Below are positions 2,670-60,990 of a DNA stretch of 64,000 bases, piece after piece. This DNA comes from Verpa conica (lineage: Eukaryota > Ascomycota > Pezizomycetes > Pezizales > Morchellaceae), in the NCBI GenBank assembly GCA_033030425.1, contig JAUFSD010000015.1, positions 496,001-560,000 on the forward strand, given 5' to 3'. The notes beneath the pieces are model-generated. The model saw only the letters and a list, made by a program, of their open reading frames with translations, was not told the DNA's origin and did not search any database. The translations under genes and the position numbers were made by a program. Each line of letters opens with the position of its first letter. Position 1 is the stretch's first letter.

Positions 2670-3319
2670 TGCAAGGGAGTAATTATATATATAATTTCCA
2701 AAAGCAATGTGTTTTAGCCGGGTCTGTACAGCCATAGGCAATAAGTCGTCTGACGGCCTGGGCCGTGGTAAGATATGTTTTAGGTAGCAACTAATGTGAG
2801 ATATTGGTGTACTATCTACATCTATAGACCTCTGGAATATGGGGATATAGTTTAACACCTAGTAAGGCCTTTTTTTGTCGTTCTGTTCCCCACCTAAGTT
2901 TATACACGTAAAAAGAGGTAAAAAAAAATACCCTATGAGTATATAGATTAGATATAAACCCTAGATTCATTGGCTTTGGAGCTCGACCCTCTTTACAGCT
3001 ATGGTAACCCCTTGCCCGAGAACTATGGATAAACGGGCTAAAACACGCCAATATTTGCTGAAACCACGTCTGATGACTGATTGCCTATAAGTACTCCGCA
3101 TGCATATAATATGATGAATTATGACCAGTACTATGATTGTACTACGCATTATGCACTCTTGTAGGAAAGCGCCGTGTGACTCTTCAAACAATCTGGAATC
3201 TGTTAATGAGTCTTTCCACATTAATATTCCCAGTATGCGGCTCTACCCGCTACCTATCAATTTCTGTGCACAGCCTTAATCATCCAACCACCTCTCTCAA
3301 AACCGTATATAACCCCGCC
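2670..3319. other. Intergenic between nop15 and the TatD-like gene
   Basis: About 650 nt holding the nop15 3' UTR and the promoter of the next gene. An upstream in-frame ATG at 3137 would lengthen the TatD-like protein by 61 residues, but that stretch shows no conserved look. No other feature is visible. Confidence 0.5.
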
Positions 3320-4793
3320 ATGACTCTCCCTGACACTGCCCGTAAAGTGTTTGGCCTCCAGCGCTCAAAAATTAACTTCGTCCCCTCCGGGATCCCATAC
3401 GTACCCGGGAAACCGCCACCAATCCGCAAAGTTGCATTCGACGGGAAAGGGTCATTGGAGAAGAGGATACCAGACGTCCACCGCTACAACGCTCTCCCAG
3501 TACTAAACCTTAGGTCCTCACAAATTAGGGAAGGGACATCACCGCACCACGGATTACCAACTATAAGAAAGGTTGGGCTTGGGTGGTCTCCAGACTGGGG
3601 AAAGCTTAGGATCAGGAAGGTGAAGGTCGATCGGTATTCTCCCTTTGACGAGGACTCGCCGTATAATCCGGAGGCACCAGTGAAAATGACAGCGCCCGGG
3701 CACCAGAGTAATTTGGATGAGAAGTTGGCGGCGGTGGCGGCTGCGGCGGAGAACCCGCAGGTGAAGAAGAAGAGTAAGAGTTCGAAAAATAACTTGGCGG
3801 TGGAAGGACATAGGATTGAGAGGCCGGATGTGAAGACTACTTATGTAGATACACATTGTCACTTGGTTTCTACACTACAGATGTTGATAGATGTGAGTAT
3901 CTCCTTCTCTCTGTAGGAAATATCTAACAAATACTCAGAACAGCGGTGATGGAGAAACAATACCCCAAAACGCCCTCGACACATTCGTCAAGACCATCTT
4001 CCCACCCCAAGTCACAGCCGTAGTCGACATCCACTGCGATCTCCCTCTCAAGGACTACCACGAGAAAGCTGCAACCCTCAACTGGCCATACCACTTCAAA
4101 TACCACTTCTCTATCGGCGTGCACCCACACTGCGCAATGTCCTACACCGACGAGGTCCACGAATCACTCGTGAAAGCAATGTCTCACCCCTCCTGTGTCG
4201 CATGGGGTGAATGCGGACTCGACTACTTCAAGAACCACATCTCCACACACCCAACCCAGCGCGCGGTATTTGCACGTCAACTCGCCGCAGCTGTACAGCT
4301 CGGTAAACCTATCGTTGTACATACCCGTGAAGCGGACGAAGACACCCTCGCTGCGATTAGAGAGAATGTTCCGAAGGACCATAGAATTCATGTCCACTGC
4401 TTTACGTCGGGTCCTACGCTTGCAAAAACAATGTTGAAGGAGTATCCGAATTCGTATATTGGTATCACGGGGGTTATCTCGTATAATGGGATTGACCATG
4501 TTAATCAGTTGATCCGCAGTGGGGAGATACCTGTTGAGAGAATGCTGTTGGAGACGGATAGTCCGTATATGGTTCCGAAGAAGGCGTATGAGTGGCTTGT
4601 GGAGGAGCGGCCCCAGGATCGGAAAAAGAGGTTTTTGGTTAGTCATTCGGGGATGATACCATTTACGGCGGACAGGATCGTGGAGGAGATTAATAGAGGT
4701 AGGAAAGCGAGGGAGGAGAAGGAGATTGCGTTAGATGAGGTGTTGGATATTACGAGAGGGAATGCAGCGAAGATGTATGGGATTGATGTTTAG
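3320..4793 (+). CDS. TatD-family metallo-hydrolase, Scn1 (Cut9-interacting)-like
   Basis: Two exons, 3320-3892 and 3939-4793, joined across a 46-nt intron (GTGAGT, CTAAC at 3924, CAG), giving 475 aa. The first about 170 residues are a fungal-specific, probably disordered extension. The TatD TIM-barrel fold follows, with the expected metal-site motifs in order: DTHCH (D177, H179, H181), GECGLDY, VVHTREAD, VHCFT and LLETDSPY near the C-terminus. TatD enzymes are divalent-metal DNases. The fungal long form is usually annotated as Cut9-interacting protein Scn1. The long N-terminus and the whole metal set fit that subgroup; substrate is inferred only from family. I chose 3320 as start because its context (GCC before ATG) is good; an in-frame ATG at 3137 is the alternative. 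Confidence 0.88.
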
Positions 4794-38092: not shown

Positions 38093-40211
38093 CTTTCAGT
38101 TGCTGGGGGGTTGTCGTTGGATAGATTGTTGGGTTGTCGTTGGGTGTCGTCGTAATTTTGTGGAATTTGGCCGTGTAGAGGAAATTCAAACAACCTGAGA
38201 ATGAACCGCGCAGGATTCCTGTGTGGGTGGCAGTCACGGTGGGTAAGGTGGCTTGGCAGTAATTTACGATGGGATGATTAGATTGGGGCTGTTGCCCTAT
38301 TGCTAGGTATCACATTTGTAGTGCAACGAGTAGCACAGATTAAGGGGTGATCTTAGACCTAGAGTAAATTATAGTTATACTTGTCCTCCAGGGTAAGAAC
38401 CAGAAATAAGGGGGTCACGATTTGTATGGGGAAATATCTGTGTATGACGCTACACTATATAAAATTGACTCCTGTTTTCTGGTTCTTACCTGGAGGACGA
38501 GTACCAAAGCCCACAATCTCTATGAGTTCACTAAAGTGAAACCTGTCTTGAAAAGTCGTAATTTATTCTACGCTTGGGTGATGCCGTTATTCGCTTATTT
38601 GAGTTGGGAATAATTTCCCCCACAGTGAGGGGAACGCAATTGGCCCAATGTCTTAGATGCGGATTCAAGATACCCATAGTGGCATCTTATCAGTGGAGTG
38701 CATTAGTTATATCGATATAAGTAGGTTAGCACCTACAAAAGGGTACATGCGTATGATATGGGCCCAATAGGTACTTATACCGCCCCGACTCCTATCAGCT
38801 TAAACATAACCTCTATAAAATTTATAAATCCATAGGTAGTGATGTGATAGGTAGTGTAGTAACAAACAACCCTAAGAAAACAGAAGGAATATCCTAAATC
38901 TCTTGACTCAGCTGCCAAGGTACTTGGATAAGGTAGGTGTCATAAAGGCTGAAAGAGCACTTGACTATGAGTTCTAGATCCCACTCCCACTGAGACGTGA
39001 GTGACTATTTAAGAACAATGCGCATCCTAGAGATTGTTAGGATTTATACAAGTACGTTTAAACTATATAGAGTCTTTTTTTGTTAGCCTGCGTAATGATA
39101 GGGTATATGGTATACGTGAACCTGTACCTTAACTGGTTGCCAGATTGAGTGACAAAATGTGGCCTCACTGATCAGTTTCCATAAGTTGTGGAATAAGGCT
39201 TTCATGTAACTATGTGGGCTGGTAGTCCCATTATTTACTGCCTATATCAATGTTCCCAAGTACCACAATTTGGCTATATGTGGATAGAAGATGCAAATAT
39301 ACTTAGGAATACATATCCTGAGATATACTCGTAGTTGTTGTGTAGATTCCGGGACTATACAGAGTCACCAATTAAAACTTCTTTCACGGACAGTTCTCTC
39401 AGAAAGGGGGAATACAGGCCTAAGTATAGTTGTAGCCAGGATGAATGTAACGAGTATTTCGGGCTAGAAACTTATGTAGTTACGTGCAGTGGGAGAAAGA
39501 TGTAAATACATTTAGGGTAAACGTGGTCAATGGTTGCGTGGGCTATTAAAGTTAGCGCTTTGTTGGGGACTGATTTTGGCACTGTGATCCGGGAGTGAAC
39601 ATTGCAACATGAGTGTTTTGTTTATTGCAACGGTAGCCCAACGTTGTCGTCTCGGTTATGAAGCTCGGCACCAACCGATGAACTTCTTTAATCTAATATG
39701 TAGAGGGGCTAACTCGATAAGGAGAGGCCACTCGAACTAAGTGCCACCTCATCTGCCAAGACCATACGTTGCTGCAGCAACCAGCTCTAATTTATCTCGT
39801 TTACCATGTTTTCGCTCTACGGGCCACTCAATCGAGTTGGTGGGTGTTGATGTTTACATACCAGACCTGCATGAGTGGACAGGAGTGGACAAGCCAGCTG
39901 AGCAGAGGAGTCGCACATCACTCGCATCGCATACAAGAAGCACATACACACGGACTATTTTCCCTCATCGCCTTGTCGCTTGCTTTGGTCTTTGTTTCTC
40001 TTTAAACACATTGCACCGTTTTGTTTTTACTCTTAGCCGTGGCTTCACAATTCATCATCCACAAAGAGCAGAGAGAACATCGTAAGTATCATCCTCCTCC
40101 TCATCCCCCCCCCATTCCATCAATCCCCTTGCTTTTTCTATCATCCGAATCTCACTCGCCTGTTGCTGCTTCAAACTAGGTATCTAAAGAAAACTGCAAA
40201 ATCGAGTGAGA
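38093..40211. other. Intergenic region with a palindromic element
   Basis: About 2.1 kb. The eL27 promoter occupies the first few hundred bases. A palindromic element sits at 38381-38500. The last 130 nt hold the leader of the next gene with a probable 5' UTR intron (GTAAGT at 40082 to TAG at 40179, 98 nt). No other gene is supported. Confidence 0.55.
38381..38500. mobile_element. 120-bp palindromic MITE-like element
   Basis: The left arm starts TTGTCCTCCAGGGTAAGAAC and the right arm, read on the minus strand, starts TCGTCCTCCAGGTAAGAACC. The arms match over about 26 bp with a one-base insertion, separated by about 68 bp. A TAC trinucleotide lies just outside each arm (with one extra base on the right), so a 3-bp duplication is possible but not clear. 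It could be a foldback transposon fragment or a hairpin RNA precursor. Confidence 0.55.
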
Positions 40212-43200
40212 ATGCCGCCTACACCAGGCAATCTTTCTACTACCCCGAAGGCTGCTTCGCGGGATACGCAGGCCGTAGTACCAATGTTTGTGTTCTTGTC
40301 TTTTGCGCATTGTTTCTAGTTTCTCATGACCATAGCTTTCAAAACAACGCTGTTCGCAACTCCAGCAGTCTAACGACAGCCCGTGATAGGTGGGACTCAG
40401 CGGATCCTTCTCGCCACCCACCTCCTTTGCCGTTAAATCCTAATCCTGGTGTTCCTGCTAGTCCTCGTACCATTGGGCGAATCGAGAGCCCTTTTCTCGC
40501 TTCCACTCAAACTCAATCCCGAGAGATATCTCCAATACGCCGTCCCCGAGAGGGCTCACCTCCCAATGGAGGAGGGTCACCCGGAAATAATAGCTCAGCC
40601 ACCCGGTCACAGCAGGTTATTTCAACTCATAGGAGACTAAATTCGATGCAACCTACACCCTCAGTTCGTGAGATTGGGAGTATGCTTGCGAATGGAGGTG
40701 CCCCCCCAGTACCCGGGCACACTAGTAATAGGAATAGTACTCCCACTCCCAAGGAATTATTTGGGACCCAGACTAGTTTCCCAACTCTCAGGGAGTCCGG
40801 GAGTCAACCAAATCTTCCAGCTACCAAGGACAACCAGCCGCCGAGTTTCCCTGCACTCAGGGAATCAGGCAGTTTCCCCTCATTTTTACAAACACCTGGC
40901 TATCGTGGATCACTAGATTTTGATAGGACACCATCTCTACTCCCTCCAATGCGTAGTTTCAAGTCTCCAGAAGGCTCACCCCCGGGCCCCGGCAATGCTC
41001 TTACTACAAAAAGTTTTTCAACTCCCCCAAAGGAACCGATGGACCGTGATCGGCTTAGAGATCAAGAGCGGGAGATGGAGGACCGACATAGGGACTGGGA
41101 GCGAGATGAGATCCCAAAATTCACAGTTCATGATCTCGAGACTCTCACATCCCAACTTTCTGGACTCACATCAATTGCCAATAGCCTTCAGAGGGAAATG
41201 ACGAATCTATCTCGGCGTTCCAAGGACAATGCCACCGACCTTATATCTTTGAAAGAAGCTACCAAAAGCAGGGACGAAGATATTCGAACTAGCCTCCGTG
41301 AGCTCGTCCACAGCCTCCGCATTATGGAGAGCGACAGGTTACTTGAAGGCCCTAGTGCATCTGTTCCCATGATTACAGCTGGGTCAACCAGCAGTCGTGC
41401 GTCTAGTTTTGCCAGTGATTTGGCCTCTTCAAAGGTCTCAGCAAGCTCCAAAGCCTCTAGTATCGACAAGTCAGGTGCTGAGATGCAAGCACTTGATAAG
41501 ATCCTGAAAGATATGCCTACGAAAGAAGAGCAGGAGCGTGTCATCGCCCTTTTACAGGATGTCCAGGGGGCTCTGAAATCCCAGGCTGGTAGGTCAGAGA
41601 GCGAGGAAAAGGTCTTATCTCTACTAGAGGAATTCAAGGACCGGGAATATGCTAGGGGAAAGGAGTTGGCTATCCCTGGAAAACTACCTGAACATGCGGA
41701 AGAAAAGATTATGTCTATGCTCGAGGATCTTCGAGAGGATCTTCATCAGCGGGAGCCAAAGGAGGTTGATAGGCGGGTTCTGTTTATGCTCGAGGAGATT
41801 AAGCAAAAGGACGTGGAAGATGAGGAGCGGATATTTTCTGTGCTGGAGGACTTGAAAGACAAGGAAGGGGATGAACGGATCGAAACGGTTCTGACCTTAC
41901 TCCAGGAACTCAAGGAACAAGGAGGGGATGCCAAAGTCCTGTCTTTCTTAGAGGATATCAAGGTTAGGATCGAAAACATGACGGCGGATATAGCAAAGTG
42001 TGTGAGTGCTGTCCAAAATCAACCACGATCACAATCCCCCGCACAATCTGAGATCAAACCCACCTCCGATCCAATTGCTAGCGACGAATTTCTTGAAGTT
42101 TTAAATAGTGTGAAGGAGGGTGTTGATAGCGGAGGAGACGTAATGGCAGAGGTGAAGAAATTGTTGGAGGACTGGAAGGGATTGAAAGGCGGACAAGAAA
42201 GGGAAGCCCAGCAGACCCTCAAAGATTTGATGAAGGAAATTGAAGTCTTGGTGACCGAGCAACGGCATGCTATTGCTAGGTTAAACAACTCTTCAGGTCT
42301 CCCATCGACTGCCCTCACTTTTAACCCCCCCCTCCCCCCTGATCTTGACAACGAAGCCGCCATCACCGCCCTCGCCAATATTGCATCTACGACTACACGT
42401 ACAGATATTACTCTTTCTTCTATCAATGCTCTTATCAAAGTTTTTCAGAAGGATGTCAGCCATGCAAATACGCACAGCGCTGAGAGTCTTTTGTCTGTTT
42501 CAAGGTTTTTGGACGACCTGCAAGAATCTATGGCTGGTACGAACTCCCAAGCTGGGGAGATACGTAAAATTATTGAGGTTATTCGGACAGGGGTAGGCAG
42601 CACAAACGATAAAATCGCTCAGTTTGACGGTTCATTCTCGCAAAAGGTCGAAGAACTTTTGCACATACAGAAACACATGCAACGAAAAATTCTCGGAAAT
42701 GAAGACGAGTACATCTGGAAGCAGGATGTGGGCGTCAAGGGGTCTGTAGAGGAGCTACGAGCCGAGGTCGAAGACATGATGGAGCGGAACACGGAGACCC
42801 TGAATGAGTCCACTGAGAAGACAATCGAAGCTATCAACAATTCCAACCCCACCCCCCTTATCGAAGAGCTGAAAACAGCACTCGGTGCAATGGCGGAGAG
42901 AAGTCTCCAAGCCTTCAAAGATGCTGACCCAACTGAATCTCTCGAGAAGCTCAGAGCTGAAATTGCTGAGTCTGCCGAAAAGACTGTCGAGGCTATCAAC
43001 AGCGCCAATCCTACAGAGCCCATTGAGCAGTTTAGGACTGAGGTCAAGGATTTGTTGGAAAAATCTTTGACTTCTATTGATTCGAAAGCTGGTACAGATG
43101 AGGTAACGGACCTCCTCAACAGCATGAAGCAGGAGCTAGGGGAGCTTGTTGAAAAATCGACTGCATCTAGTTTGACCGAGTCTGCGGAGGTGAAGCTTGC

Positions 43201-46200
43201 TATCCAAACTTTCAAGGTAGAAGTTGAAGAAATGCTTGAGAAATCACTCAACTCAGCCATGACTCTCACCTCTGCCCACGCTGATGACAGGACCAGTGCT
43301 GCAATCTCAGAGTTGAAGGTCGAGGTTAGTGATATGATGTCAAAAGCAGTCGCTATTGCAGAAAAGCCGGACGGCTTGGAGAAAATTCAGGAGTCAATCC
43401 AGGGTCTCAAGGTAGAGGTCACTGATCTCATGGATAAGTATACAACTGCCCTTACACCTCCGACAACCTACCCCGAAGCAGAAGAGATCAAAGCTCGCAT
43501 TGCTGCATTGAGTAACGAACTCTGTGAGGCTATGGAACGAACAATGGCCCTTGCTAGCGAATCCTCGTCTGAGTCTAGCCACAAGATTAAGACAACTGTC
43601 GAGGAACTCCGAAGCGATATTGGTGAGCTTGGTAAGTCGATGGCAGCAGCTGTGACTAGTAATTCTGCCTCAAGTGTCGAGGAGTCTATGAAAACCGCGT
43701 TCGAGTTGATGAGGAGCGAGGTCCTGGAGAAGATTGAAAAATCAACCTCCACCAACGTTGAGACAAATGATAAGATGACCGCAGCCATCGAAGAGCTCAA
43801 GAAGGAAGTAAACGAAGCAGTTGAAAATAGCATCTCGTTAGCTGTTGCTGCCGTTCCGGAACCTGATCTCGAGCCTATCAATAAGGTCCATGAAGCCCTC
43901 GAGGGTCTCAAAGAGCAGATTTCAAACGCCATGGACAAATCTTTGGTCACAGCAGGCTCCGGGTCTGGTAACGTTGGGGAAATTGTTGAACAACTGAGAA
44001 AGGAAGTTTCTGAGATGATGGAGAAGACAACGTCTATGCTTGCTCCTTCAGGCTCCGAGGAGGGAACCAAGAGACTCCTTGCAGATATCAAGAAGGATAT
44101 TGCCAGCATGTTGGAAAACGCACCATCACCTGCTACATCCAGCATCGATGCTATTAAGGACGCTGTGAACGAGCTCCGCAAGGATGTGTCGGATATGCTT
44201 GAAAAGTCAATGTTTACAATGTCCGCCTCTAGGGGTGCCGACGCCGATAATACACCAGTTATTGCCGATCCAAGTGCTGTCGAAAGAATCGAAAACACTA
44301 TCTCCGAGCTCAAGACGGATATTAGCGAAATGGTAGAGCGAAGTTTGGCCGCTGCTATTGCGAACTCCACCTTCGATTCGGAAGAGAATGTGAAGGAGGT
44401 CATCGAAGAACTGAAGAAGGATGTGCGTGATATCCTTCAGATGTCTATTGTACCCATCGGACCAGCAAAAGAGGACACCGTCGAGCTTGTTAAGTTGGCT
44501 TTGGCAAATTTCAAGAGCGAGCTTGGAGTTAGCTCTACGGCAGGAGTTCCTGTTTCTGCGGGACCTAGTGATGGAATGATGGAAGCAATTTCAGAGCTGA
44601 AAGCTCAGGTAGCCGGGATGGTGGACAGATCCAAGGACGACGAAATTAGGGGTGCTTTAGAAGCGTTAAGGATGCAGGTAGAAGGGTTTTCTGGGGGTGT
44701 TTCTGGTGGACAGGAGAAGGAGGCAATCGAGGCATTGAAGAAGGAAGTCGGAGGGTTGGCGGAGAAATTCGGTACGGCAGCAGGGGAGATAAAGAGTGTG
44801 GTTGAAGGGTTGAAGGCAAGGGAATCAGGGCAGTTGCAGGTGTTGGGAGAATCCGGCGGAATTGAAGTTAGGGAAGCTATCGAAGCCCTAACGAATGAGG
44901 TGAAAGGATTGGAGATCAAGGACAGCATGGATGCCCTGAAAGCTCAACTCGGGGAACTGTCCGAGAAGTCGAAGGACGAAGAAATCAAGGAGGCCATCGA
45001 GTCACTTAAGCAGGATATTGAACATTCCATGGACCGGTCGATTTCTGCCCTCGTCATCCCCAAATCAGAGGATGGTCCTGCAGTGAAGGAGATGATTGAC
45101 ACGCTCAGGAAGGACTTGTTACAATCCGTCGAGAAGGGGTTCGAAGCTGCCAAAGACTCCGAAGCAATCCGAGACTTGACAAAAGCGGTTCGTGAACTAA
45201 TGGAGAGGCCGATTAAATTTGGCGGCAGTGACGCCGGCAGCGAACAGCCTCCTGTTTTCGACAAAATCGAGTACCGAGCGACTGACAAAGCCGGCGACAA
45301 AGCGGATAAGCTCAAGGTTGCAGTCGATGTCCTTCGAAAGGAGTTCTTGGAGATGATGGAAAAGTTTTCTGGAATCGTCAGCACATCTGTCTCCGCCCCC
45401 GAATCAGAGCAAGCCTTTGAAGATATGAGGAATGCAGCAATGGAGGTCAAACAAGCAACATTTGAAGTCAAAAGAGCCTTGGGTGGTCTTGCGCAAGGAC
45501 AGGCAGAGGAGAAGGAGGCGATCTCTGATATCAATTCTGATATTGGTGAATGCCGAGTCGAGGTTGCAGTGGTTAAGACCTTAGTTGAGGAGAAGAGTGG
45601 CGAAGTCAAAGATAGCATTGCAGGTGTCGCAAAGGCTGTCAGTGAGTCTAATGTCGAAGTCAAGGAATCGGTATCTGAGGTCAAGGAAGGCATCGAAATA
45701 CTTCAGACGGTCACTACAGAAGGCATTGTTGGCGTTTCCAGTGCGGTTTCCGAATTTCAGACTGAGACAAAAGAAGGACTTGCTGGAATTGATAGCAACA
45801 TTTCTAAGTTCCAGAAAGAAGTCAATGAAGGAGTCGCTAGTATTAATATCACCATCACCAATCTCAAATCTGAAGTGAAGGAAGATATCGCCGATGTTAA
45901 GCACATTATCTCGGAAATACAACTGGAAACGACTGAAGGCATCACTGATATCAACAAAGCAATTTCTGAGTTTCAGGCGGAGAGCAAGGTGGGAATCAGT
46001 GGCGTGAAGGAAGTAGTTGAGTTTGTGAAGGTAGACTTGAAGGAAGGAGTTGAAGCGGTGAAAAAGAGGGTTGAGGATTCACAGCTAGAGGTCAAGGAGG
46101 TAGTCGTCGGAATTGGGGCAAAGATCGAGGCATCAGAAACCGGACTCAAGACTGCCATTGAGGAGTCTCACACAAAAGTTCACGAGAGTCTCGCGGGTGT

Positions 46201-47647
46201 CAATGCAGTGGTTGAAGGATACAGTACAGAAGTCAAAGAAGATGTTTTTGCTGTTAAAAAGGCTGTCGAGGAATCACATACCACTACCGTCCAGGAACAC
46301 CATAATACTCAGAAGCAAGTCAAGGAGATTATGGGTCTCATGGATGTATTGCAGACAGAGTGGAAAGGATCGCAGCCAACTTTATTCAACGCTTTATTAG
46401 AGCTGAAGCACCTACTCAGAGATGCACAAGAGTCAATCGCGAAAAAACCAGACTCAATTCCTCCTCCACCTGCTTATGATGACTCACAAACACAAGAGAA
46501 GTTGAATATACTTCTAGCCGCCGAGACCAGGACTGCGAAGCACCTTCCACAATTGGATCTTTTGGACTCTATCCAGCAGCAAGTCTCGACTACCTCGGCA
46601 GATATTGCAGAATTTCTGAGCATGCAGAAAGAAGTTCTTCTTGAGGATGCCACCGCTAAAATTGATGCTGCTCGACAGGCTGAAAATGATTTAGAGAAGG
46701 CCAACGCAGACAAAAAGATCATTGAAGCCGCTACAGCTGCTCTCCGAGATGAACACGCCAACCTCCAGGATTCCATCGAAGCTTTGAAAGACGAAACGGA
46801 GTCTCTCAATGCTCGGAGACTTAAGCTCACTGCCCAGGTTGCCGGACTAGAGACTGCACTTGACTTGAGGAGGGATGAATTGGTGCTACTTGAAGCTAGG
46901 GCCGAGGGTCTAGAACGTAGGGTCATTGAAGGCGTCATCGAGCAGTCCCGGGCACTACTTTCGAAACCACGTTCAAGTAACTCCCGCCTGTCGAAGGCTG
47001 GTGCCGAAGCTATCCGGATGAAGGCCCAGCATAGTCCTATCCCCCGAGCATCCGCTGCACCTGGAAGACGACACCTCTCGCTCAACGAAATCTCCGGCGA
47101 TTCCCAAGGTACTACAAGTAACAAGTCCACCAAATCTAGTAGAGCAAGCCTCAACGGTACTGTCTTAGGCTTGGGTCAGCATGAATATTCTGCTAGCCTT
47201 GGACTCTTATCGAGGAGTCAATCTACCCGGAGCGTTCGTGGTACTCGGAAGAGCAGTTGGAACCAGAAAAACGGCAGGACAATTTCCGAGAATAGCAAAG
47301 AAAATGAGAGGGAGTCGCCAGTAAGGGAAGAGGAGATTGGTGATATTGATGCAGATGGAGGCGTTGATGTGAACATGGATGTCTTGAGAGATGATGTGGA
47401 TATGGATGTCTTGAGACATGATCTGGTGGAGGAAGATGAAGAGCTAGATATCGAATTCAATGAAGAGAGGAGGAGTAGTAGTGGGAGTGTTAGAAGATTC
47501 GCAGATGACGACGATAATACAGGTAGCCCGAGCTTGAAGAAGAAGAAGACTTATCCGGCTCTGGGGCTTGATTTCTCTAATGAAGGGATGGATAGGAGGG
47601 ATCTTAGTGGGCAAAGGACGCCTAGTGGTTTCAGTACTGGGCCTTAG
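40212..47647 (+). CDS. Giant coiled-coil repeat protein (2,461 aa)
   Basis: Proposed exons 40212-40285 and 40336-47647 (50-nt intron, GTTTGT..ATAG), starting MPPTPGNLSTTPKAASRDTQ and continuing IFQNNAVRNSSSLTTARDRW. A 98-nt intron likely sits in the leader. Residues about 30-300 are Ser/Pro-rich and disordered. Three helical repeat types follow: about 25-residue units (ERIFSVLEDLKDKEGD, residues about 420-575), about 45-60-residue units (ELRAEVEDMMERNTETLNES; ELKTDISEMVERS; about 825-1650) and 22-residue units (SEFQTETKEGLAGIDSNI; about 1760-2010). A last coiled coil (EALKDETESLNARRLKLTAQ) precedes a Ser-rich, acidic tail. Fungal genomes often label such proteins M-protein repeat or involucrin-repeat. 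The heptad character suggests a scaffold or tether; location is unknown. Confidence 0.8.
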
Positions 47648-51294: not shown

Positions 51295-54200
51295 ATGGCG
51301 ATCCATAATTCAAGATGCCCTGTTAGTGGTAATTCTGATGCTTCCGGTTCCTGCCCTGGTTCAAGGAGCTCTTCAAGGATGGGACCTAGAGGTTGCGCTT
51401 TCTCTGGCTTTTCTTTAGATGCTCAACAAGTTCTCTACGGTGTAAGATACAAATCCTTTTCTTTTAACTATTTGTTTCATTAAGGGATATATTTGGGGGC
51501 TAATTGAGTGGTAATAGGCACCTCAAGGACCTAATGCACCCGCAATAATCTATGAAAACGAACGTAGGACGATGGTCGACGTACTGCTCCCAGAAGCCCC
51601 CCCAAAAGAACGAACCTGGGGCCTTAAGAATGCAGACGTCCTTACACCATCACCAGAAGATGTCCTAGCTGCCGCACTAGGTGCACCAGCACGTCGAGTT
51701 CTGCAGCGGGCAGAATCTATGGGGCCAAGAACAGGCTGGCGCGACGGATATCTGACAAGCTCACATGGTTTCTGCCCACCTGATCCTTCAGCATCTCCCA
51801 TTGCCTTAGCTTCCTGCCCAGGAAGAGTCTGGAGTGACTTGTGTAGTCGAATGCCTGGTTTGGTCGGCAGGGGTAAAATTCGAGAAGCCATCCTAGAGCT
51901 ACCACTTATCAGTGGTGGACCTGAAGTCATCCCTGATAAAGCACTTTGGGCTGCAACAGTATGCCTAGGAATCCTGGCAAGTGTTTATCGCTACGAAGAA
52001 CGGAATGATGGTCATGAGGGAATTGTTGCTGGTGCACACGCATCAGCCTTCCTGAATGCTACGGGAGATGCCGAAGATGAGGAAGAGGAGACTAAGGGAA
52101 TACCACGGAATGTCGCAATCCCATTGAGGGCGGTCTGTACTCGTATGGGACGTCCATTGCCACATCTCACTCAGTACGATGTTTCAATATACAATTACAA
52201 ATTGCGCGATCCAACTAGTGTTTATCCATATGTTGAGAGATTTGAGAATATGGACTTGAGATGGCCAGTGTTCCAAGATCTTGCTGAGCGTGGGTTCTTG
52301 CTATGCATGGCTGCTAGTCATGGTTGCTTTACTCCTGGAGTTGAGCTTATTGCTCGCTGTCAAGAGATGGTAATGGAGAAGTAAGTCTTGGATCAGCACT
52401 CAATACTAGGAATGGAAGGGACTCTTTATCTAACTCGTGTTCACTTAGGAATAACGAAGGATTATTAAGAGAACTCATAGCCTTGAAGGAGGTGGTCGAT
52501 CAGCTGGGTTACGTTTTCCATCAAATCAGTGTAAACCCAGGTTCTGGCGAGAATTTCTCCAATCCAGTAAGTATCAAATCTCATTGAAAACTAGGTCCCC
52601 TTAGAGTTCTAACGATTTTACAGGTCGAATGGGGTCAACGATATGCGAAGTTTTCGGCTCCACTCTCAAAACGTGTACCGGCTTTATCTGGGCTTGCATT
52701 ACCGCTATTCCAACTTATGGATGCCTTTCTAGGCCGTAAAAAATACGACTCCTTCCTCGGGCTAGAGGCACTTCATCTCCGAGCGTGGTTGCCTTTGAAC
52801 ATTCGAGCATTCATCACAGCCGTGGAACAATATTACACGATCCCAGAATATGTGAAAGCAAGTGGGGATTCACGATTAATGGGTGTTCTAGAGGGAATCG
52901 TCGAGTCATACGCTGGGGAAAGGGGCTTTATGGGAACACATAGATGTGAGTTTATGTTATTATTCTTAATCGCATAAAACCTGACGTGTCATGATAGACA
53001 AGGTATATGGGTTTTTAGAGGTAGTTGCAAAAACTGGCCGTACAGAAACAAACGGCAACGCTGGTGCTGGAGATAATCAAGGTCGACCTTGGGAAGAGGT
53101 TCACAAGACCTTATCAGATTCAATGATTGAACGACTAGAACCTTTCCGAGATAATATTACTCGCAAGCCTCACGAGATGAGAGGATGTTTTGAAGAATGC
53201 CGTTTTAAAGCAAGGATTGCACACCGCTCCTTTATCGACAATGACCCTGACCGAAGCACGGCTAAGGTCACAATTGATCTTATGCAATCTGGAATTACTT
53301 TCGGTCCAGGAGATCGTCTTGCAATCATGCCACTAAATCCTTGGAAAGAAGTTGTGAAAGTGGCTGATGTGTTTGGTTTGATACAGAGATTAGAGGAGGT
53401 TATTGCATTGGAAAGGTCTTCTGAGTGGAAGCGATACGCAGGTCATGAGGCAGCAATTGCAAGAAATAATTCTGCTGCTGTGTTGAAAGTTAAGGATATC
53501 CTTAGAAAAGGACATCTATCCCCTCTTACAAAAGAAACAGTAATGCAGGTAAGTTCATACCCTTGATCTCTTTTCGGGCGATTTCTCATAATGGGGCCGA
53601 ACTAGGTCCATGTCCTCCTTCGAACTTCATCACCGACTGTCTTAAAAGTACTTGCGTCAGAGACATGGCCGGTCAGGGGGTCACTGGGGGATCTCCTAAC
53701 TGCTGCTTACTCTGAGGTCGTACCAGAAGTGTGGAACAAAGCATTTAACCCCGATGATTTATCATGGTTAGCAAAGCTAGTTCCTGTTGAAGTCCCTAGG
53801 ACCTACTCAATTTCTAGCTATTCTGATGAGCTTCTCCCAAGCTCTCTAGATCTAACAGTATCACGTGTGGAGCATGAGGTTTTCCCAGCTCTCCTTCCTG
53901 GAGGTGTCAGGAAAGAATTCTGCGCTGGTGTGAGCAGCGGATTTCTAAACCCTCATCCTGAAGAGGAAAGAATAATTTCTGAAATTCCCGGCTTTGCTGA
54001 AATCGAAGACACTGTACTCGTTGGTGTATCTCGGCCGTTGAACTTTCAACTCCCTATCTCACCTGCAGCGCCAGTAGCCATGTTTGCTGGTGGATCTGGG
54101 ATCGCTCCTTTCAGAAGTTTCTGGAATCAACGGATTTCTTCTGGGGCTGTTGGGCGAAACATCTTATTCCTAGGAGTTCAATCCCGGAAAAAGCTCGTTT

Positions 54201-56553
54201 ACGAGGATGAGCTTCGTGACCACGTTCGGTATAATGGCCTTGAACTTCACACTGCTTTCTCACGTGATCGTAAGGGACTTATGTACGACCAATACGTCCG
54301 GGATTTAGTGGAGAGAGATATGGAACCAAGATACCTTGACATGGCTATTGTTGAGAATGGAAGTACTGTCTGCGATATTGTGATGTCGACAAAGCTCGGT
54401 GGACTAGGCGGATACCTCTATATTTGCGGTTCGGTTTCTGTCTACGAAACTGTGATTTCTGGCATTAGAAAATCAATCTACAACAATCGGGCAGTGACTG
54501 AAAAGTCTGCAGATATTCTTCTGGCAACTGCCTTCGCTGAGCGAAGGTTGATGCTTGATATTTTCATGACTCCTAAAGCAATGTCATTCAAGGAGCCGGT
54601 TATACCCATATCAGAACTTTCGAAGAATACTGGTCACCGAGAAGGCTCTAAGACCTGGATCGGTGTTCATGGTGCTGTATACGATATTACCGAGTTTCTA
54701 CCTATCCATCCTGGGGGCTCCCTTATTGTCGCAGCCAGTGCGGGCCTAGACGCAACAAAGACCTTCGACGATCTTGCCCATACCTCAAATCCAGAAGTCA
54801 TGAGTCTTCTCTCAAAATATTTCATCGGATATCTGGCTCCAAAGCCAAATCTACAGTCTACAGAGCTGTCTTCACTATATGATGGATGGCAAGATTATCT
54901 GAGGACTTGTGTAGAGAGTTTAACCACTCTATCGTTCGAGGTGAAGTCTCTCATGAAAGATAATCACATTTGGTTCTCTGGTGGTATGTTAAATATGGGG
55001 GGAGTACGTAAATTCTACCAGGTATGTGTTTCCCCGCGTTACATTTAGAACATCTTGCTAAATTAGTTTTATAGTTCCAATCACGCTTGATGCAAAATGC
55101 ATTTAGTGAACTATTCGGTACAAAGCTTCAGGAGCTATATCTCAAACTAACTTTCAACTTAATGGCCCTTCAAAGTACCGGATCAAGATTTCCCGACGTC
55201 ATGGGCATCATATCTCGTGCACAATCCTCTCAAGCGGCTACCAAGGCCCAGAAGGAAATTGCACAGATTGGGGATTTGGTTTGCAACAGTGGAGCAGCAC
55301 AATCTATTGAACGTGGCTTGATTCGATATGCTCAGTCAGTCACCGAGTTAGATGTGCGATTCTTAGAGCAAATCCGAGAGGAGATTTGTACAGGTATGGA
55401 TGGATTTGATCTGGTTGCAACAATGAAGACCACAACAATGGAGAAGCAGGTATGTTCACAGCTATTTCCAAGGAAACCTCTTAGCTATGGGTCCTAACAT
55501 CAAATATTTTACTAGCGATTATTTAAAGTATCTGCTTTCTTGATATCATTACTTGAAAGAGTTGCTGAGCGACTTGACAACTTCTACGCTGAAATTGCTC
55601 AACAATCTCTTTACCATCCAGAGATAGAAGAGAACCCCGCCCGTGCCCGCTGGAGACTTGTCAAACGGCGCATCTTCGATGGCAGTTTCTTCCTGTTCAC
55701 TCAAGATATTTCTTTAGATAGCCAACCCATGGACAGCATAAACGAACCAATGTCACCATTCCAACCCCTACGGCAAGCACGAATGCGCCAAAGTGTATCG
55801 TTTAACCAGATCGTGTCGAGTGCAAATGATATGGTCAACCGGTTAAACCATGGAAGAAGTCTTGAAAGTTTTATGCAATCGACAACCAGTAATGAGAGAG
55901 GACGCGATACTCAAAACGATAAGGGCACTATCACTGTACAACCCCTCCGAAGATTAGCAGATATGCATACCACACGAGCAACGAAGTCTGAGAACCCAAC
56001 ATCGAGCTACATTGAACATTTGGATCGAAAAGCTGCAAGTAGAATGTCTATCTTCATGTCTGAGAACGTGAAAGCACTTAAAAGACTAAGTCGGATCCCC
56101 CTGGACCCTATTGCCCTCCAGCATGCAATGAGTGTTTATGGCGGTTCAAATCACGGCGGTTCAAATCACGGTGGTTTAAATCATGGTGGTTCAAATTATG
56201 GTGGTTCAAATCATGGTGGTTCTGTTTATGGCGGTAGCTCTAGTCGAGCTCCACGTAGACTAGCAAGGTCGATACCTGAAGCAACAATCAGTAGCCGTGC
56301 AAGCTCTCGAGAAAGAATTAATCTCGCAAATGTGGAAACCGTTAGACTGGATGATGGTAGATCCACTATATCAAACCATATGCGTACAGAAAGTGTTGCA
56401 TCTCGATTTTCCTCGGCACGCGAACGATCCTCGTCTTCATCCTCGTCGAGGAATCTTCACCGAAAACTATCAATGTCTTCAGTTCACTCTGTAAGCAGTG
56501 ATGCAATGAGTAGGGGCTTAGAGGCACTAAAGAAGAAATACGTGGTGACATAG
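51295..56553 (+). CDS. IDO-like dioxygenase / FAD-NAD(P)H reductase / cytochrome b5 fusion
   Basis: Eight exons: 51295-51441, 51518-52380, 52449-52566, 52624-52945, 52998-53548, 53606-55021, 55075-55449 and 55516-56553, giving 1,609 aa; all introns are 52-76 nt with consensus donors. Residues about 60-510 match indoleamine 2,3-dioxygenase (PRNVAIPL at about 245, VFHQI near 360, likely proximal heme His482 in GTHRYKVYGFLE). Residues about 560-930 are a P450-reductase-type FAD/NAD(P)H module (R732 in RTYSISSY; GGSGIAPFRSF from 829; LYICGS) with no FMN domain. Residues about 998-1079 are cytochrome b5 (HPGG with His1035; second ligand His1059, spacing 24 as in the family). A helical domain (about 1090-1370) and a Ser-rich tail with GGSNH repeats (about 1473-1507) follow. 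Inferred role: NAD(P)H-driven heme dioxygenation of an indole-type substrate, cytosolic; substrate unproven. Confidence 0.88.
56142..56247 (+). repeat. In-frame GGSNHG minisatellite inside the fusion gene
   Basis: A 15-bp unit of type GGTGGTTCAAATCAT is repeated about six times with point changes, encoding GGSNHGGSNHGGLNHGGSNY and related units. It lies in the disordered C-terminal tail. The length of such repeats often varies between strains. Confidence 0.8.
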
Positions 56554-57269: not shown

Positions 57270-58165
57270 ATGGTATGCAACCTAATCAATCCCCTACCCC
57301 TCCTCTCCTGCCGTGGTGCAGCTGTATGTGTGGATTATATACATATATATATATACCTACTAGGGAGCGTAGATTGATTGCATATGATAAGACATGATGC
57401 GATCCGAGCACCATCGTTAACGTGCTATACTCTAGTCTACAGAAGAAACAGGGCTTCCCGCAAACTGGACCGTCAGATTCTCCAAGTCAAAGAACCTCCC
57501 GTACTACTTCAACACGGCAACAAACGCATCGCAATGGGCCCCACCAGCTGATGCAGATTCAGAGACTCTAAAGGTGTACATGGCAAAGCAGTTTCCGGCT
57601 ACAACGCTACAGCCGTCTGAGGGTGGGGCACAAGCTGGAAAGATCAGGTGTAGCCATTTGCTCGTCAAGCATAAAGGTAGCAGAAGACCGAGCTCATGGA
57701 AGGAAGTTGGTTCCCCATTCCACTCTCCCCCATGGCATTCATCCGAATGCTTTTACTAATATAGTGTAGGCAAATATTACTAGAACGAAGGAAGAAGCCA
57801 TGGAAATCATTCTAGGCTTCGAGGCGCGTGTTAGAGAAGGTTCGGTTAGCTTGGCAGACCTTGCGCTCACCGAGTCCGACTGTAGCAGTGCTAGGAAACG
57901 CGGTGACCTGTTAGTGACCTCCTAGAAACCTCAAACTTCTCATCAACTCCAAAGTTCCCACTTCTCAAATACTTAAACCTTGTCTCAATGGCACACATAT
58001 ATATAAATTGATGCTGATAATGAATAATATAGCGGCTTCTTTGGCAGGGGTGAAATGCAGAAGGAGTTTGAAGAGGCTGCTTTTGAGCTCAAGCCCGGCG
58101 AGATGAGCCATACAGTTGAGACGGCATCCGGGATCCATCTTATCGAAAGGTTAATATCCCCCTAG
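57270..58165 (+). CDS. pin1: Pin1/Ess1 WW-domain parvulin prolyl isomerase
   Basis: Four exons: 57270-57272 (the ATG alone), 57436-57705, 57770-57909 and 58033-58165, giving 181 aa. The first join gives [20 protein letters not shown], the normal family start. The WW domain has both tryptophans (NW and QWAPP). The parvulin domain shows [19 protein letters not shown], then [39 protein letters not shown] and SGIHLIERL. The Cys of CSHLL, the basic patch (K and two R) and the later His match Pin1 catalytic and phosphate-binding residues. The enzyme isomerises pSer/pThr-Pro bonds, for instance in the RNA polymerase II tail and mitotic proteins. Donors of introns 2 and 3 (GTTGGT, GTTAGT) are off-consensus. 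The last codons (ISP) are read through to a TAG; an extra 3' intron is the alternative. Confidence 0.93.
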
Positions 58166-60990
58166 TACTATTTTTTCTTCTTCCTCTCTTTTCTCTCATG
58201 GGGTGGTTGGATATTCGCAGGAACTAACTCTCTATGGCATGTAGGTTGGAATGAATAATTATTTTCTTATAGGTTTACCTATATCGAGCGTCCATTCACA
58301 TGAGAGGAACAAAATGGAGTAAAGTATTTCAAGAACGATATGATTAGCCTTTTACCCCCTCCCACTATAGCTTCTTATTTTCTTTCCTTCTTCAATTTAT
58401 TGTCAGTAATCTCAGACCAATAAAGAATGAATGCATAAGTAGGGAAATCTTATGTTGGAAATTTTAGGTTCGTACTAAAAAAGACAGAAGCAAAAATGTT
58501 TTAATTAGGAAAAAAGCAACATTTCTTTGTGTCCCTCTTTGCTTACTATATTTTCCGGTTGCGGCGGACTTTTTACTTGTATAGCCCCCAGTGGGGGGAG
58601 GAGGAAATTCTTCAATTCGACGCTCTATCTCCATACCATAATCAGTGTCAACTTAAGAACTCTGTAAGAAGCAAATGAACATATGTGGGGGCCGAAGATC
58701 CCGACTTCCTGCAAAGATGTCATTTCTATTTTCCAGCCCGTGTTCAGGTCGGGGGATCATATCCAGATACTGATTGCAGGGAAAGAACCCGATTCATGGT
58801 CCGCACCATGCAGTTTGTCTCTGCCTATCTGTCTGCCTCCGTTATATCATCCCTTCGCACTTGTTTTTTTCACCCTTGCATGAACCATACCGCCAATGTT
58901 TTGCAAAACGGGCCGGACCCTAAAACAGCTGCAAGCTAAAAAATGAAAGCGGGGCGGATAGTGACGGTAGGCGTTGGTTATTTGTTTTAAGTTGATACAT
59001 GAATCATCATCCGTCTCCACATATGAGATGACTTCACAAGTAAAATTAGAGCATGTGGGGGCAGCTAAACGATCGAATAAAGTTGCTCGTGACAGTCCAT
59101 CATCCCTCGGAGTGGGGAGACTCACGCAGCGGGGACGAGTAGAAAAAAGGAAACTGGAATTCGGAAGTGATAAAACAGCCTTGAAACAATCAGTATCGGA
59201 GATGGGGTACCTTTTTTTTACGTCCTGCTTGAAAGAAGGAAAAAGAGGATTCTCGTCAGGAATTGATGGCTAATACCGAGTTGCACTTATGATTCGCCGG
59301 ACATCGCCGATTGAGGTGAGCGCCATCGCATAGTAATTTCACACAACAATTGTTTTCCAGGCGGCTCGAAGGACTTCACGTATGACCAGATCTGACAGCT
59401 AAACGGTTTTGGCTACTTATTGTCAAATAAGTACCTGCAAGCGGAAATAGCACCAGGGAAAGGGACCGCAACTATGACACGGGTAGGGTAAGAATTTTTC
59501 CGAAGTTTTCAAAATTCTGGTATTGATATTCACATGTGATATAACAGTAAGAATGTCATGGGCGCACATGCTTGGTGGGGTGGAGGGTTTAATTGAGCCT
59601 CATGCCATTCCAAGACTTCATGTACCTCGGATGCGTGGAATGAGGAAGCTTTGGCTCCTCGGGTGATTATGGCGAGATTGAGGCCAATTAAGGCCTTGGG
59701 TCTCCGCCTACCGGGAGAGAAAAGGTTTTGCGTTACAATTGTGTGTCCAATGCTGTTGCGGCGAGCTTTCATGAGTATTTAGCCAAACCTTCCGCCACAG
59801 GGCTGATGATGCATGTGGCACCTTTAAACAGGCCGGAAGCGAGAATCGGGTTAGGTGCTAAGGTACATGTCAAGAACTCGTTCCGAGTGAGCTTTAATCC
59901 TTGCGTGTTGATCATCCCTTCCGCGGATTAGGATTAGGTGTGGTTATCTTTGGCGCGACAAGTCTGTGCTCGAGCCGCGAGGGCGTTTTTCACATGTGAA
60001 GAGGGAAAGCTTTCCAACGTCCATTCTGTGACACATAACAGCTGCCTAGACTGACGCCTTCAGGAAAAGAAGAAAGGACGACGTGAGCTACGATAAGTGA
60101 ATTTGATGGACAGCAGAGATAGGAACCTGACAGACGGGTTAATTGTAGGAATTCAGGGAGGTGATAATGGTGGTGGTGGGGCGGTCAAAATCTCGAGTAC
60201 AAACGACATGCAGGTTGTAACTGGACTGCAGATATGGTGGGCACACACACAGAGCTCAGAGATATCATGGAAGCTTAGGTTAAATCTAGCGATTTGCGGA
60301 CAGGAGACCGTATCGGAAACCCCACCCAGCAGCCCAATGAGTCCTCAGTGCAAGGGACCCAGAACGGCGGTTGATAAGCCCTGACCGTGTCGAACGGCCC
60401 AGGTATCCATCTTTTGGGCAACATTCTCTTGTATTTCCTTTTTTCTTTTCACGTGTCAAAGAAATGGGGGGCGTTGCAGGCGAGGGCTATTCGCCTAGAT
60501 GTCCCTCCCTTGCGGCGCGTTCTCCCCACTGCGGTTTTTTGTTCTGAGGCAGAATAGTCGTTGGCGGGAGGGAGGGGTTGGTGTTGCATACGTAAACACA
60601 GGGACTTATCTCTCTTGACCAGTCCTGGCATTCTGATACAAGCTAGCTACTGGGGATTGTCTTCCATACAAATACTGCAGCTTCCCTCCTCCACCTCTCT
60701 TGTCCTCTTCCCCTCTGCTCATCTCTTTACCTACTGTCCGCTATACTTGATCACCTTGTACAGGCCGTGATAGTAAGTCCATCTACTCCATTCCCCTAAA
60801 TTTCTATCTATCCATAGCAAACTCTCCATCCTCTATTTATCCTCTCACAACCCTACCTCATTGATCTCATCTCTATCTACCTACATATCAACACCTTGCT
60901 AACTCGTACCTTTATAGCCTCGCCTGCTCCCACAAGACCACTCAAAGACACAATCCTCCCCATATATTAATTCACAGCAAGAAAGACAGC
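58166..60990. other. Long intergenic region and perilipin leader
   Basis: About 2.8 kb with no supported gene. Frames at 58974-59273 and elsewhere have no domain. The last 380 nt are strongly pyrimidine-rich, typical of the promoter and leader of a highly expressed gene. A GTAAGT at 60773 and a CACAG ending at 60977 probably bound a 205-nt leader intron. Confidence 0.5.

Follow-up and report, generated by a model that had tools for sequence, protein, structure and literature searches.

An IDO-fold heme domain, a flavin reductase module and cytochrome b5 in one predicted chain in Verpa conica and its fungal relatives

A single spliced gene

We analyzed a 64,000-nucleotide stretch of the Verpa conica genome (contig JAUFSD010000015.1 of assembly GCA_033030425.1, positions 496,001 to 560,000 of the forward strand), hereafter called the window, whose first letter is position 1. 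The window carries a gene whose predicted protein joins an indoleamine 2,3-dioxygenase (IDO)-like heme domain, a reductase module that binds flavin adenine dinucleotide (FAD) and NAD(P)H, and a cytochrome b5 domain. A preliminary description had read it as a single frame of 1,609 codons in which dioxygenase and electron donors are fused. The gene and its exons are as follows.

51295..56553, + strand: whole gene, 8 exons, stop included, 1609 amino acids (from splice sites and translation)
51295-51441, 51518-52380, 52449-52566 and 52624-52945, + strand: exons 1-4
52998-53548, 53606-55021, 55075-55449 and 55516-56553 (with stop), + strand: exons 5-8

The joined exons measure 4830 nt, or 1609 codons plus one terminal stop, and run from the ATG at 51295 to the stop codon at 56551-56553; start, stop and length of the frame were thus all given correctly. 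The seven introns are 52-76 nt long, with donors GTAAGA, GTAAGT, GTGAGT or GTATGT and acceptors TAG or CAG, and retention of any one of them brings in an in-frame stop. When the window protein was aligned with five relatives, none of the seven splice junctions carried a gap; two small gaps lie upstream of the junctions that follow residues 49 and 1264, at a distance of at most 10 residues. Two separate genes, or an artefact of gene prediction, were ruled out, since the exon junctions continue in relatives and the same architecture occurs in single long open reading frames of distant metagenome proteins. To survey relatives, we searched about 5.8 billion proteins, scored 7989 candidates and counted relatives at E-values up to 0.001. 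This gave 350 relatives, 120 of which were listed, and 103 of the 120 are single polypeptides named by NCBI that match all four Pfam families. One continuous gene is therefore established.

The heme domain and its pocket

The first of the modules comprises the following features. Residue counts here and below refer to an alignment of the window protein and 54 relatives (55 rows); the list of near-invariant residues leaves out P0238 and P0242, and the histidine counts use all 55 rows.

51758..53137, + strand: IDO-fold heme domain, about residues 130-530, exons 2-5; Pfam core 130-364
52630..52632, + strand: Trp379, in the column of classical Phe226; W in 55/55 rows
52939..52941, + strand: His482, predicted proximal heme ligand, in the column of human IDO1 His346; H in 55/55 rows and in both classical IDOs

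The Pfam IDO family (PF01231) matched residues 130-364 with an E-value of 7.5e-15 and 55 bits, against a curated cut-off of 26, and its model was also matched by all nine members of a family alignment. Among solved structures, the first third of the protein found human IDO1 at E 1.8e-8 as a single sequence and at E 2.8e-14 when a profile of nine relatives was used. The IDO fold was also found in structure models of relatives. The IDO match is therefore significant both by sequence and by fold, and chance similarity was dismissed on the sequence, profile and fold matches. Matches to mTOR FRB (E 0.055 and above) in the IDO profile search, and to phage families at E 0.2, were taken as chance.

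The proximal heme histidine is kept. In an alignment that includes the classical IDO of the same genome and an archaeal IDO, His482 shares its column with the classical proximal histidine, which we take to be His346 in human IDO1 numbering. The pocket differs. In the columns that we assign to Phe226 and Arg231 of human IDO1, which we assume to have their role in the substrate pocket, the family has Trp in 55/55 rows in the former and Ala (40 rows), Gly (14) or a gap (1) in the latter. A nine-row alignment agrees, with W in 9 for the Phe226 column and A in 8 and G in 1 for the Arg231 column; the archaeal IDO has Tyr, not Phe, at the former. The GTGG motif of the JK loop, which was scored by motif count because the alignment of that loop is unreliable, occurs in 0/55 of the IDO regions cut from family members and in both classical IDOs compared. 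TNG follows KxGRxx in 53/55 of these regions and may stand in for GTGG. Other residues on the pocket side are strictly kept (W379, P403 and D409 in 55/55, S398 and G399 in 54/54). In our reading, a single remodelling would have given a pocket that has stayed the same ever since and that suits a substrate anchored unlike L-tryptophan; the Arg231 loop is the least certain point.

The genome also holds a separate, classical IDO. The assembly (45.8 Mb in 25 contigs) shows IDO matches on contig C5 (classical), on C15 (this locus) and, weakly, on C13. The gene on C5 gave three exon-wise matches, the best at E 3.3e-79, and carries the stretches HVQMVTRY, GTGGT and FYFKIRPFL; two of the matches contain one TAG each, which we place at intron ends. 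The match on C13, near 1456608 (3159-3929 of the excerpt L007), is a third, divergent IDO-like stretch.

These observations bear on the alternative of a genuine tryptophan (or indoleamine) 2,3-dioxygenase, in which the fused reductase and b5 would serve solely to hold the heme in the ferrous state. IDOs of fungi take part in the kynurenine pathway, and the fold and the proximal histidine of the window protein are those of IDO. In the sections of PMC13142367 on this subject, moreover, NADPH-P450 reductase can support human IDO1 in vitro whether or not b5 is present. However, the Trp and Ala/Gly at the Phe226 and Arg231 columns, the missing GTGG and the presence of the C5 gene with its FYFKIRPFL stretch all argue against such an enzyme, and we consider it unlikely. 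The label of tryptophan dioxygenase, which the preliminary description had implied, therefore goes too far.

The reductase and cytochrome b5 modules

All four Pfam matches exceed their own curated cut-offs, in a scan that gave no further family up to E 1. One polypeptide with the modules in the order first described is supported. The features downstream of the heme domain are these.

53204..53869, + strand: FAD_binding_1 module, residues 553-755, with the FAD motif RTYSISS; Pfam E 5.5e-9
54080..54328, + strand: NAD(P)H-binding module, residues 826-908 (Pfam core), with GGSGIAPFR and AFSRD; NAD_binding_1 E 7e-8
54614..54838, + strand: cytochrome b5 domain, residues 1004-1078; Pfam Cyt-b5 E 7.2e-15
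54707..54709, + strand: His1035, predicted b5 heme ligand, in HPGG; H in 54/54 rows with a letter
54779..54781, + strand: His1059, predicted b5 heme ligand, in LAHT; H in 54/54 rows with a letter

The motifs RTYSISSY, GGSGIAPFR and LYICGS noted at the outset are present in the translation, and the two b5 histidines, H1035 and H1059, are indeed 24 residues apart. Among rows with a letter, the FAD motif is kept at R732 (54/54), Y734 (54/54) and S735 (53/54) and the NAD(P)H motifs at G832 (54/54), S886 (52/54, with Thr in 2) and R887 (54/54). C941 and G942 are kept in 54/54, and an aromatic residue near the module end, F987, in 53/54. The three predicted heme ligands, together with the FAD and NAD(P)H motifs, are thus established as invariant or nearly so.

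No Pfam match to a flavodoxin domain, which would bind flavin mononucleotide (FMN), appeared up to E 1 across the 1609 residues, in agreement with the preliminary description. Among the best 60 of 106 matches to Protein Data Bank sequences, those to the middle of the protein include sulfite reductase flavoprotein, P450 reductase and nitric-oxide synthase, while a cytochrome b5 chain matched the b5 part (E 5e-15). A structure model of the reductase part of relatives, compared by Foldseek, matched the FAD domain of P450 BM3, P450 reductase and sulfite reductase flavoprotein among 50 matches listed, which establishes the reductase fold in these models. No b5 reductase occurred among those 60 sequence matches or the 50 Foldseek matches. 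The module looks most like those of P450 reductase, sulfite reductase flavoprotein and nitric-oxide synthase, so that the proposed likeness to cytochrome b5 reductase suits the order of electron flow more than the type of reductase. Stronger FAD_binding_1 matches sit on other contigs (E down to 5.5e-69), and the exon-wise match at this locus falls below the cut-off; this indicates that separate P450-reductase-type genes exist in the genome.

Relative to IDO (PF01231; human IDO1 and IDO2 and the C5 copy), the window protein adds a reductase, b5, a helical region and the altered pocket columns. With the diflavin reductases (P450 reductase, P450 BM3, sulfite reductase flavoprotein and nitric-oxide synthase) it shares an FAD/NAD(P)H module that is alike in both sequence and fold, as well as the aromatic residue near the module end, but no FMN or flavodoxin domain was detected by Pfam and cytochrome b5 follows instead. 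The b5 reductases are generally placed in an FAD family other than PF00667. Fusions of b5 with its reductase, such as the fungal ZtCBR2, likewise combine an FAD module with b5 on a single chain, with a presumed flow from FAD to b5; in the portions of PMC4557397 that describe them, however, b5 is N-terminal and no IDO-fold oxygenase is described, and the FAD domain of fungal b5 reductases is labelled PF00667 too.

A search of the open-access full-text literature found no characterised enzyme with the order IDO, reductase and b5, as the preliminary description had also stated; PMC4595289 and PMC10269595, as far as their relevant passages go, treat ordinary IDO. Other members of the IDO-like fold have a different organisation: to our knowledge, PrnB, MarE, SfmD and TyrH are stand-alone proteins with no fused reductase or b5. 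By description, the window protein resembles these in its IDO/TDO-like fold and its predicted heme histidine, and its substrate may likewise be aromatic; the pertinent parts of PMC11791213 indicate that the PrnB/MarE superfamily does more than tryptophan dioxygenation.

A heme protein and a flavin reductase in one polypeptide are also found in P450 BM3 and nitric-oxide synthase. The same holds for flavohaemoglobin and the raphidophyte truncated-haemoglobin nitrate reductase, as excerpted from PMC3820574. In these self-sufficient enzymes the heme domain has a globin, P450 or nitric-oxide synthase fold, in contrast to the IDO fold here. We considered a nitric-oxide (NO) dioxygenase or denitrosylase, in which heme-bound O2 would turn NO into nitrate and the reductase would restore the ferrous heme, in the manner of flavohaemoglobin. 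Such a role shares the layout just described, would account for the replaced tryptophan pocket, and recalls the support that b5 gives to cytoglobin NO dioxygenase in vitro (same excerpts of PMC3820574). However, the strictly conserved W379, P403, D409, S398 and G399 suggest an organic substrate, the IDO-like Turbo myoglobin does not dioxygenate NO with fidelity (again in PMC3820574, in part), and no neighbouring gene with a Pfam match points to NO. We regard this role as improbable.

Distribution and phylogeny

All four Pfam families occur, by precomputed domains, in 114/120 of the listed relatives, the exceptions being P0002, P0027, P0041, P0043, P0049 and P0083. The closest listed are from Kalaharituber pfeilii (72% identity) and Ascobolus immersus (71%), both Pezizomycetes, the class of Verpa conica. 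Basidiomycetes (Rhizoctonia, Serendipita, Marasmius and Mycena) and the chytrid Gaertneriomyces follow at 60-65%, and a second group, including Colletotrichum and Podospora, at 52-56%. We take this second group to be a paralogue, because five organisms among those listed hold both kinds (P0008/P0067, P0016/P0105, P0023/P0068, P0027/P0096 and P0037/P0095). The names attached to relatives include 'NADPH-hemoprotein reductase', 'sulfite reductase flavoprotein alpha-component', 'nitrate reductase', 'indoleamine 2,3-dioxygenase' and 'related to nitric-oxide synthase, salivary gland'. Many carry the sulfite reductase name and some the nitrate reductase or nitric-oxide synthase names, which are misleading.

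A query aimed at distant full-length relatives returned 56 proteins, including P0241, P0242 and P0243 (protist-like) and P0250 and P0252 (bacteria-like), these labels being based on a single long open reading frame and on appearance only. All five match the four Pfam families at E up to 0.1, with FAD_binding_1 below its curated cut-off in P0241, P0250 and P0252, as in the chytrid-named P0247, and are 26-34% identical to the window protein across about its first 950-1330 residues. P0250 and P0252, which are full-length metagenome versions of the fusion, are 40% identical to each other.

With the fungal profile, no relative was found in prokaryote genome contigs or viral contigs. A scan of genome contigs with P0250 and P0252 gave one locus, which matched the reductase part only; there was no IDO match in that genome, where the control was silent too. 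A plasmid search with P0252 gave 84 records, none of which reached 80% coverage of the query; among the 15 matches listed, 14 hit the reductase part and one is an archaeal stand-alone IDO beside kynureninase. This IDO (L024, 5971-7131), on a plasmid of Haladaptatus salinisoli, lies near genes for kynureninase, an alpha/beta hydrolase and trpB, and the plasmid apparently carries a kynurenine pathway. As for stand-alone orthologues of the fungal family, no clear one was noticed among the 120 listed of 142 matches, which were not each examined; they look like gene models of this family that are incomplete or split by exon. P0134, which has IDO and b5 but no reductase, looks like a faulty gene model.

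We also inferred two maximum-likelihood trees, one for the IDO part and one for the reductase-b5 part, each from 54 rows without P0238; they were rooted at the midpoint with no outgroup, and the tool warned that long branches meet. The fungi held together in both trees (100/99 and 100/100) and were separate from the three protist-like rows and the bacteria-like pair. In the reductase-b5 tree, two chytrids are outermost, followed by the basidiomycetes and then the ascomycetes with the paralogue group inside. The order in the IDO tree differs, with one chytrid beside the basidiomycetes, the other beside an ascomycete and several forks unresolved, and the paralogue group is together there too (100/100). 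The simplest reading, though not proven, is one old fusion that would have been inherited as a unit, and the four-module architecture is widely conserved and probably old. The earlier suggestion that 'the fungus' had made the fusion does not hold, given the same architecture in the 114 relatives and in the distant metagenome proteins.

Proposed function

We propose, with a probability of roughly 0.6, that the protein is an NADPH-driven, self-contained heme oxygenase, with an IDO-fold heme ligated by His482, an FAD/NADPH module and b5 as carrier, and with an aromatic substrate that is not clamped by Arg231. Since no FMN domain was found, FAD to b5 to heme would be the natural electron route. 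NADPH would give a hydride to the FAD of the P450-reductase-type module, which would have lost (or never had) its FMN domain, so that the b5 C-terminal to it takes that domain's place. FAD would then hand single electrons to the b5 heme, b5 would reduce the His482-ligated IDO-type heme, and the ferrous heme would bind O2 and oxidise the substrate. Heme binding, the direction and route of the electrons, the preference for NADPH, the oxygenase chemistry and the kind of substrate are all points that we infer. The substrate is probably aromatic and perhaps indole-like; free L-tryptophan it is probably not, since there is no Arg231-type carboxylate clamp. Given the permanently attached reductase and the changed pocket, NADPH-consuming oxygenation is worth testing.

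Several points speak against this proposal. The classical IDO reaction consumes no reductant and needs only occasional re-reduction, so that the fused reductase could merely re-activate the heme, and tryptophan with another anchor would be possible. The loop bearing Arg231 is unlike that of classical IDO in length, which makes its column less sure than that of the histidine. A C-terminal region of about 260 residues stands without a role in the scheme, and the structure models are those of relatives, not of the window protein. Finally, the IDO-like PrnB gave no product in vitro with P450 reductase or reduced b5 (PMC11791213, in the passages concerned), which suggests that such electron donors fail for some members of the fold. 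In structural terms the fusion is sensible nonetheless.

An extension of the proposed self-contained oxygenase is an ancient class of self-sufficient IDO-fold oxygenases, spread over fungi and the protist-like and bacteria-like metagenome proteins, in which b5 would replace the FMN domain and NADPH would be used at each turnover, by monooxygenation or another reductive oxygenation, on a conserved non-tryptophan substrate. Such a class would be to the IDO fold what P450 BM3 and nitric-oxide synthase are to theirs. This we offer tentatively, as possible rather than probable.

The single domains are known; the combination, its wide distribution and the uniformly altered IDO pocket offer good prospects of a new activity. 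How cells keep IDO1 reduced in vivo is still called unclear (PMC13142367, in the same sections), and a natural fusion of IDO fold, FAD module and b5 brings this question within reach of a direct test on a single molecule. As FMN would be bypassed, the protein would also offer a natural way to ask whether a P450-reductase-type FAD can supply a heme oxygenase through b5 alone. Should the altered pocket reflect a new substrate, there would be a conserved fungal reaction still to be recognised.

The protein ends and the neighbourhood

Three further features of the protein lie outside the four modules.

51295..51441, + strand: N-terminal extension, residues 1-49, with Cys-Pro dipeptides and an RGCAF motif
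54857..55758, + strand: conserved helical C-terminal region, about residues 1085-1345, with introns 55022-55074 and 55450-55515 inside
55759..56550, + strand: low-complexity tail, about residues 1346-1609, with a GGSNH-type repeat

The N-terminus of the window protein resembles those of fungal relatives. Among 123 long relatives, 83 have at least two Cys-Pro dipeptides before a GAPAR motif and 90 have GxRGCxF or GPRGC; the pattern resembles the Cys-Pro dipeptides of heme regulatory motifs. The helical region after b5, of about 260 residues, was missing from the module list first drawn up. It gave no Pfam match up to E 1 and no match to Protein Data Bank sequences up to E 10, its fold not having been searched separately; it is moderately conserved in fungi and forms long helices in the model of P0250. 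The mean share of the commonest letter, over 114 rows, is 0.52-0.55 for residues 1-100, 0.61-0.83 for residues 101-1100 and 0.57-0.68 for residues 1101-1350.

These ends might indicate a non-enzymatic role in redox sensing or signalling, in which the helical region and the Cys-Pro motifs would read the states of heme and flavin. That non-catalytic ends are conserved, with the dipeptides in many relatives and the helical region common to fungi, is consistent with such a role. However, the ends are more variable, on average, than the core of four domains, and no Cys-Pro occurs in the first 75 residues of P0250 and P0252 (P0252 possibly being cut at its start). We therefore give a sensor very little credence. 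The tail contains a short in-frame GGSNH-type repeat at 56137-56238.

No biosynthetic gene cluster was seen: the 20 neighbouring frames scanned with Pfam belong to ordinary families or have no match. The families are TatD DNase, RNA-binding protein, actin-related, SWIB, Band 7, RPN6, short-chain dehydrogenase, a WW-domain protein and a perilipin-like protein. Upstream, at 40037-47644 (+ strand), runs an uninterrupted frame of 2536 codons, whose Pfam matches are weak and below the cut-off. The WW-domain frame, assigned by Pfam, lies directly downstream of the gene, at about 57270-58300 (+ strand), and the frames after it look by eye like a Pin1-type prolyl isomerase.

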